A DNA stretch of 38,195 nucleotides. Origin: Acidimicrobiia bacterium. Lineage in GTDB: Bacteria > Actinomycetota > Acidimicrobiia > Spongiisociales > UBA5794. Where the stretch lies: the NCBI GenBank assembly GCA_030066755.1, contig JASJAX010000036.1, forward strand, positions 1 through 38,195, given 5' to 3'. The notes beneath the pieces are model-generated. The model was not told the DNA's origin and searched no databases. It was given only the letters and a program-made list of their open reading frames with translations. Numbering within the stretch: position 1 is the first letter of the stretch; each line of letters opens with the position of its first letter. Shown here in pieces: positions 15,978-17,333 of this stretch. The translations under genes were made by a program, and so were the position numbers.

Positions 15978-16967
15978 CTACAGCTTGTTCAGGCCGATGG
16001 CGGTGCGGACTTCTCGCATGTAGTGCTCGGCTTGGGCTTCGGCACGCTCCGCCCCGTCGGCGAGGACCTTCACGATGTCCCCGTCGTCGAGCTCGTTGTA
16101 GCGCTCACGGATCGGCGTGAGTAGGTCGACCAGCGCGTCGGCAACGGCGAGTTTGAAGGTGCCGTACCCGCTATCGCCGAACTCGGCAACGAGATCGTCG
16201 ATCGACCGTCCGGTGGCGGCGGACATGATCTCGAGCAGATTGGAGATCCCGGCCTTGTGCTCGGGGTCGTAGCGCACGGTCGGCTCGGAGTCGGTCATGG
16301 CCGATTTGATGCGCTTCACGACCACATCCGGCGGATCGACGATGCCCACGCGGCTCCGCACGTTCTCGTCGGACTTGGACATCTTGGAGGTCGGGTCAGC
16401 GAGCGACATCACTCGCGCCGCCGTCTCCGGGATGAGCGGTTCCGGGATCGGGAAGATGTCGCCGTACCGGTTGTTGAAGCGCTCGGCGAGATCGCGGGTC
16501 ATCTCGAGGTGCTGCTTCTGATCGTCGCCGACCGGAACCAGATTGGCGCGATGGATCAGGATGTCCGCAGCCATGAGGACCGGATACGAGAACAAGCCGA
16601 GGTTGGCGGCATGGCCTTGCGCCAACCGGTCCTTGTACTGCGTCATCCGATTGAGCACGCCCATGGGGGTCATCACTCCGAGGAGCCACGACAGCTCGGC
16701 ATGCTGCGGCACGTAGCTCTGTGCATAGACCAGCGCCCGCTCGGGGTCGATGCCCGTAGCGAGCAGCACCTTGGCCCCGGCGATGCGGTTGCGCCTCAGG
16801 TCATCGGGATCCTGGGGCAAGGTGATGGCGTGCTGATCGACGATGCAGTAGATCGTGTCGTACTCGTCCTGGAGACGTACCCAGTTGCGGAAGGCACCGA
16901 GGTAGGTACCGATGTGCATCTCCCCGGTGGGTTGCACTCCCGAGAAGACCCGTTGCTTCGTGCTCAA
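15978..16967 (-). CDS. trpS: Tryptophanyl-tRNA synthetase
   Basis: RVFSGVQPTGEMHIGTYLGAFRNWV; DPTSKMSKSDENVRSRVGIVD (KMSKS). Confidence 0.98.
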   Translation of the reverse strand: MSTKQRVFSGVQPTGEMHIGTYLGAFRNWVRLQDEYDTIYCIVDQHAITLPQDPDDLRRNRIAGAKVLLATGIDPERALVYAQSYVPQHAELSWLLGVMTPMGVLNRMTQYKDRLAQGHAANLGLFSYPVLMAADILIHRANLVPVGDDQKQHLEMTRDLAERFNNRYGDIFPIPEPLIPETAARVMSLADPTSKMSKSDENVRSRVGIVDPPDVVVKRIKSAMTDSEPTVRYDPEHKAGISNLLEIMSAATGRSIDDLVAEFGDSGYGTFKLAVADALVDLLTPIRERYNELDDGDIVKVLADGAERAEAQAEHYMREVRTAIGLNKL

Positions 16968-17026
16968 TGCTCCGTCCCTGTGTTCGATCGTGGTGTTCGT
17001 TGCTCAGATCTTGCGGTCACTCCGGA

Positions 17027-17064
17027 CACAAGAAACCGCCGGGGCTGCGAGGAGCCACCGGCGG
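17027..17064 (-). terminator. Intrinsic terminator (3:4 hairpin) of the trpS attenuator
   Basis: Minus strand CCGCCGG-T-GGCT-CCTCGC-AGCC-CCGGCGG followed by TTTCTTGTG. Confidence 0.8.
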
Positions 17065-17086
17065 CGTCACCGCGCGCGAGGTGGCC

Positions 17087-17125
17087 TCAGTTCGGCCAAA
17101 CCCAGCGATCGGTGCGTGCGTTCAT
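17087..17125 (-). CDS. trpS leader peptide MNARTDRWVWPN*
   Basis: ATG AAC GCA CGC ACC GAT CGC TGG GTT TGG CCG AAC TGA on minus strand; two Trp codons; followed by competing hairpins and a terminator. Confidence 0.85.
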   Translation of the reverse strand: MNARTDRWVWPN

Positions 17126-17179: not shown

Positions 17180-17208
17180 TTGACGGCCACCGACGCCCCC
17201 GGCATACT
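17180..17208 (+). promoter_or_regulatory. Candidate promoter for the cimA leader
   Basis: TTGACG (17180-17185) - 17 nt - CATACT (17203-17208), 7 nt before the leader ATG at 17216. Confidence 0.5.
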
Positions 17209-17215
17209 GCCCGCC

Positions 17216-17254
17216 ATGGTGAGTATCGCCGGCAACGGCATCGAGATTACGTAG
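17216..17254 (+). CDS. Candidate cimA leader peptide MVSIAGNGIEIT*
   Basis: ATG GTG AGT ATC GCC GGC AAC GGC ATC GAG ATT ACG TAG; three Ile codons and one Val in 12; precedes an isoleucine-pathway gene and a hairpin with a T-rich tail. Confidence 0.65.
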   Translation: MVSIAGNGIEIT

Positions 17255-17288
17255 GCGTACATGCCGCTCGAGCGGCGTGTACGCCGCT
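17254..17288 (+). promoter_or_regulatory. Alternative hairpins in the cimA leader
   Basis: 17254-17268 pairs with 17271-17285 (15 bp, one G-T wobble); 17271-17277 (AGCGGCG) can instead pair with 17282-17288 (CGCCGCT). Confidence 0.6.
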
Positions 17289-17291
17289 GCG

Positions 17292-17316
17292 ACCCTCCGG
17301 AGACGGAGGGTTTCTC
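17292..17316 (+). terminator. Candidate intrinsic terminator upstream of cimA
   Basis: ACCCTCCG-GAGA-CGGAGGGT followed by TTCTC. Confidence 0.65.
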
Positions 17317-17333
17317 ATTGCTCAGGACCACCC

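Follow-up and report, generated by a model that had tools for sequence, protein, structure and literature searches.

Does translation of a short tryptophan-containing leader peptide set the expression of trpS, the gene for tryptophanyl-tRNA synthetase, in an Acidimicrobiia bacterium? The question is raised by a 38,195-nt stretch of DNA (contig JASJAX010000036.1; "the window" is the whole of this stretch), for which an earlier note had proposed a ribosome-mediated attenuator on the minus strand upstream of trpS. From the sequence of the window and its relatives, we conclude that the element is very probably a ribosome-mediated transcription attenuator that would tune trpS to the supply of charged tRNA-Trp, a prediction that is solid because the switch is kept in relatives. 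The gene that it would regulate is a member of Trp metabolism (TIGR00233), and the source genome (91.7% complete) gave one match to it, so that this is the only copy found. The best match in the same genome to a chorismate-binding (trpE-like) protein is cut off where contig C142 ends.

A tryptophan leader and its alternative pairings upstream of trpS

The features of the region, all on the minus strand, are as follows.

16967-15978, minus: trpS, tryptophanyl-tRNA synthetase, 329 aa; TTG start at 16967 behind GGAG; TIGR00233, 333.5 bits
17160-17155, minus: -35 box TTGCCA, 17 nt upstream of the -10 box (sequence)
17137-17132, minus: -10 box TAACCT, last base 6 nt before the leader ATG (sequence and relatives)
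17125-17087, minus: leader peptide ORF MNARTDRWVWPN*, 12 codons, without a Shine-Dalgarno sequence (sequence and relatives)
17116-17094, minus: segment 1 (leader codons 4-11), pairing with segment 2 if the ribosome is absent (fold and relatives)
17086-17065, minus: segment 2, the GC-rich spacer just 3' of the leader stop (ribosome-position folding; spacer length conserved in relatives)
17065-17053, minus: segment 3, the 5' arm of the terminator, pairing with segment 2 when the ribosome is stalled at Trp (folding)
17046-17027, minus: segment 4 (17046-17035) and the T-rich terminator tail (folding; terminator check in relatives)

The 12-codon reading frame described earlier is present, with Trp at codons 8 (17104-17102) and 10 (17098-17096), and lies 158 nt from the TTG start of trpS. 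The core of the proposed 1:2 pairing, GGCC at 17097-17094 with 17086-17083, is also there; its extent had been drawn too short, the full predicted hairpin (17116-17094 with 17086-17065) having 18 pairs. The 2:3 helix was found exactly where it had been placed (17085-17080 with 17059-17054), and the predicted fold adds inner helices at 17077-17071 with 17066-17061. The 3:4 terminator was recovered as a bulged hairpin spanning 17065-17035, made of helices 17065-17058:17042-17035 and 17056-17053:17046-17043 and followed by the tail TTCTTGTG. Its U tract is modest, being short and mixed, and a strict consensus promoter/terminator scan did not call the bulged terminator.

Taken by itself the leader of the window is just suggestive: the whole-length fold of the leader has z = -1.65 against shuffles, the 2:3 switching is matched by 8% of spacer shuffles and the 1:2 pairing by 24%. 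We therefore gathered trpS upstream regions from relatives. In full-length thermodynamic folds of the window's leader the terminator is favoured even when segment 2 is free, so the switch must be kinetic, like every classical attenuator.

The promoter stops 6 nt short of the leader ATG, the canonical distance, which predicts that the transcript starts at the A of this codon and that the leader peptide is leaderless, the RNA beginning on the leader AUG. This spacing resembles that of S. lividans, where the -10 box lies on average 6.3 nt from the transcript start (PMC8079986). A consensus promoter scan did not find the trpS promoter; TAACCT matches three of the six consensus bases. A TANNNT box starts 10-17 nt before the leader in 33 of the first 34 relatives and occurs nowhere else within the upstream 60 nt, and these 34 members had been picked by the Trp ORF and hairpin alone, their -10 boxes not being considered.

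The leader is conserved upstream of trpS in relatives

Trp was not required when we screened 141 upstream regions of trpS from the class for short ORFs placed immediately behind a TANNNT box. Such an ORF was present in 49 of them; 48 contained Trp and 32 contained Trp-Trp, versus 7.5, 1.6 and 0, respectively, in shuffled regions. The trpS leader is thus not a product of chance. A first set of 61 regions had yielded recurrent leaders with WW or WWW (MRTNDLGWWRHDR, MALTRNWWRTTR, MITTSTQWWWSAV, MQTNRWWWPGER), as well as leaders with a single Trp (for example MNDDRRWRARSG and MQKRCVWRFERT).

The geometry is equally regular. In 46 curated members the leader has 11-14 codons, the last Trp always stands 2-5 codons ahead of the stop, the distance from stop to terminator is 20-32 nt, and a GC-rich terminator stem is followed by a T-rich tail. 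Trp accounts for 91 of the 510 leader codons after the start, and the leader is conserved although the trpS proteins are just 54-69% identical. Orthologous trpS leaders without conserved Trp codons and three-way pairing were what the earlier note had named as evidence against an attenuator, and the comparison came out in favour of one. Two short ORFs that passed the first filter (L026 and L030) were excluded, as they are without a proper terminator. Eleven of the 46 leaders (L010, L014, L020, L024, L028, L111, L115, L117, L122, L210 and L211) share the design with a single Trp codon, so that a tandem of Trp codons is perhaps dispensable.

When a sequence-only model built from 27 leaders was run against 296 genomes from the class, it gave 35 matches at E<=1.3e-4, all of them trpS leaders. 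Thirty-four stand immediately before a co-directional trpS, and the remaining one (G022 C29) is a second copy of the same leader, located where another contig ends. No fewer than nine of the genomes with matches had contributed nothing to the model; weaker matches were scattered. Many trpS genes of the same order have no leader, and the Trp leader was absent from 39 trpS upstream regions of other orders in the class, for which loss was considered. In a wider sample of the phylum it precedes trpS at 3 of the 27 loci examined, indicating a patchy distribution. These three (L294, L295 and L309), which come from a single family of the phylum that is not part of the class, are predicted leaderless Trp leaders ending RWWPL, RRWPL and RWWPLP.

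Predicted antiterminator pairing depends on the position of the ribosome

RNAalifold on a MAFFT alignment of the leaders returned just five terminator pairs and almost no covariation. Since the 1:2 and 2:3 positions are too variable for sequence alignment, we used a test made on each sequence separately: the RNA of each member was folded up to before the 3' arm of the terminator for three cases: a ribosome on the first Trp codon, a ribosome on the stop codon, and no ribosome. A 12-nt downstream ribosome shadow was assumed. The mean number of pairs between the 5' arm of the terminator and upstream sequence in the 46 members was 7.9 with the ribosome stalled at Trp, 4.1 at the stop and 5.1 without a ribosome, versus 5.8, 4.8 and 6.7 for shuffled spacers. 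Real spacers thus pair more at the Trp stall and less in the other two states, and in this model only a ribosome stalled at Trp favours the antiterminator. The leader of the window gave 9.8, 3.9 and 4.2. Uncorrected for shared ancestry, 26 of the 46 members exceed 90% of their own shuffles, and pairing between leader and spacer (1:2) in relatives exceeds that of spacer shuffles. The idea that a stalled ribosome frees segment 2, put forward earlier, gains support from this dependence on ribosome position in the window and the 46 members; the attenuator reading as a whole is backed by the conserved Trp codons, geometry and pairing, and by a location exclusive to trpS.

We propose the following course of events. 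RNA polymerase would start at, or a few bases from, the leader AUG, and a ribosome would load on this leaderless AUG and translate the 12 codons. With ample Trp-tRNA, the ribosome reaching the stop would cover segment 2, allowing 3:4 to form and transcription to end before trpS. When Trp-tRNA is scarce, the ribosome would stall at codon 8 or 10, disrupting 1:2, so that the emerging segment 2 could pair with segment 3; the terminator would then be blocked and trpS transcribed. Were the leader not translated, 1:2 would form and termination would follow by default. The switch should therefore raise trpS when charged tryptophan-tRNA is short.

Other readings of the region can be weighed against these data. 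The hairpin might be a constitutive terminator or a chance structure next to a chance short ORF, with no regulation and meaningless Trp codons; hairpins form easily in GC-rich DNA, and the fold of the window's leader is just 1.65 standard deviations below shuffles. We give this a very slight chance, as the excess of Trp in promoter-adjacent ORFs over shuffles already refutes it and the geometry is constant across the 46 members. Alternatively, the ribosome on the leader might alter access to the trpS start codon, a form of translational control suggested by the modest U tract of the window and by many relatives in which the hairpin ends just 14-20 nt before trpS. In the window, however, 67 nt separate the hairpin from the start, the hairpin excludes the trpS ribosome-binding site, and T-rich tails are found throughout the members, making this explanation very unlikely.

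T-box, TRAP and riboswitch elements control Trp genes in other bacteria, which is the reason to consider a Trp-sensing RNA or protein-bound element in place of a leader read by the ribosome. A covariance-model search of the window against Rfam (leader families, T-boxes and others), however, brought no family to its gathering threshold, and what is conserved is a reading frame with Trp codons beside its stop, leaving such an element scarcely any probability. The lone permissive Rfam match in the window, to a human lncRNA family (17.5 bits, E 0.58), was rejected as noise. Attenuation by a translated leader peptide is the reading that we retain for trpS.

A second leader on the opposite strand precedes cimA

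The gene divergent from trpS is cimA, encoding citramalate synthase (TIGR00977), and the plus strand carries the following features.

17180-17208, plus: cimA promoter TTGACG-17-CATACT (scan/sequence)
17216-17254, plus: predicted leaderless Ile leader peptide MVSIAGNGIEIT* of cimA, ATG at 17216 (conserved in relatives)
17252-17319, plus: hairpin P, from the stop codon, and terminator T (GACCCTCCGGAGACGGAGGGTT, T-rich tail) of the cimA leader (folding, relatives)

Positions 17180-17319 are thus predicted to form a second leaderless attenuator, for cimA. The earlier note did not contain it, nor did it mention the promoter and leaderless placement of the Trp leader or trpS as the sole genomic copy. 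The same plan recurs in each of the 34 upstream regions of cimA that were retained from the order, most of them with runs of Ile (for example MTDARNFTIIIT, MFQPTTIIIID and MEYRYSIIIR), with compensatory changes at 8 of 13 consensus pairs. Rfam gave no match to the cimA leader. A model of it matches 157 of the 296 genomes; in five genomes of the order, the window's own included, a second match was examined and lies before ilvB. These ilvB leaders (L283, at G000 C202:6950-9500, L284, L285, L289 and L290) have mixed Ile-Leu-Val codons: MTRNGIILVLT in the genome of the window, and MTTTSFVLILM, MKPTYTILVLP and MFATEILVLQ among the others. In three genomes of other orders (L286, L287 and L288) the match precedes a leuB-like/ilvE-like pair ahead of cimA, with leaders such as MTATSVAVIP and MRTSTAPVIVIE; ilvB, leuB and ilvE were named by reading their translations, without a family search. 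The known actinobacterial ilvB leaders (PMC1262725, PMC8079986) are likely kin of this family.

In the cimA leaders no antiterminator was predicted, the terminator arm being mostly free in every ribosome state; hairpin and terminator are consecutive and do not overlap. At least seven genomes (G000, G005, G016, G022, G245, G272 and G290) have the trpS and cimA leaders together in a single intergenic region. It is possible, if doubtful, that the region combines two divergent leaderless attenuators, responding to tRNA-Trp and tRNA-Ile and 90 bp apart, with a tandem-hairpin switch at cimA and ilvB, in which the terminator comes directly after a hairpin whose formation could be blocked only by a ribosome standing on the stop codon, with no classical antiterminator. 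As cimA and ilvB are both preceded by a conserved leader for branched-chain amino acids, attenuation through leaderless peptides seems to be a control layer of general use in the lineage. For trpS, the 46 natural variants, with one to three Trp codons and fixed geometry, are material for testing the minimal design of such a switch.

Comparison with known attenuators

The trp leader of Escherichia coli works by 1:2, 2:3 and 3:4 pairing with Trp codons in segment 1; it has a Shine-Dalgarno sequence and a 5' UTR and controls biosynthesis genes. The window leader shares the pairing logic and the placement of Trp in segment 1, but is without a Shine-Dalgarno sequence and stands before trpS; the Rfam search showed no sequence relation between the two. 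RNA-seq of Streptomyces lividans revealed leaderless trpL1 before trpE and leaderless trpL2 (MMTRTCTQLWRAA*), with a single Trp, before trpS (PMC8079986). The trpL2-trpS arrangement of strain TK24 is similar in having a leaderless Trp leader of similar length directly before trpS and followed by hairpins (PMC8079986). It differs in its one Trp codon and in that no U tract was reported, whereas the window family usually carries two or three Trp codons and its terminator is T-tailed, and S. lividans belongs to another class of the phylum. In Corynebacterium and Streptomyces, trp operons, and in S. avermitilis also trpS2, were predicted by Seliverstov et al. (2005) to have classical attenuators (PMC1262725). 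The trpS2 element resembles the window in its classical leader peptide with Trp codons, antiterminator, terminator and conserved complementary triple (PMC1262725). By its name, however, trpS2 is not a sole copy, whereas the window genome has a single trpS, and the genomes that the study lists include no Acidimicrobiia (PMC1262725). The rnTrpL RNA of Sinorhizobium meliloti starts at its AUG and is likewise a Trp attenuator that begins with the leader ORF, but trpL controls trpE(G) rather than trpS, and trans action is described for both its peptide and its RNA (PMC7298713). The mechanism, even in leaderless form at trpS, is therefore already known (PMC1262725, PMC8079986, PMC7298713). The new part is the order-wide set of trpS-leader members, absent from Rfam, through which leaderless Trp attenuation at a synthetase gene would reach an entire order of uncultured Acidimicrobiia and act there on the sole trpS.
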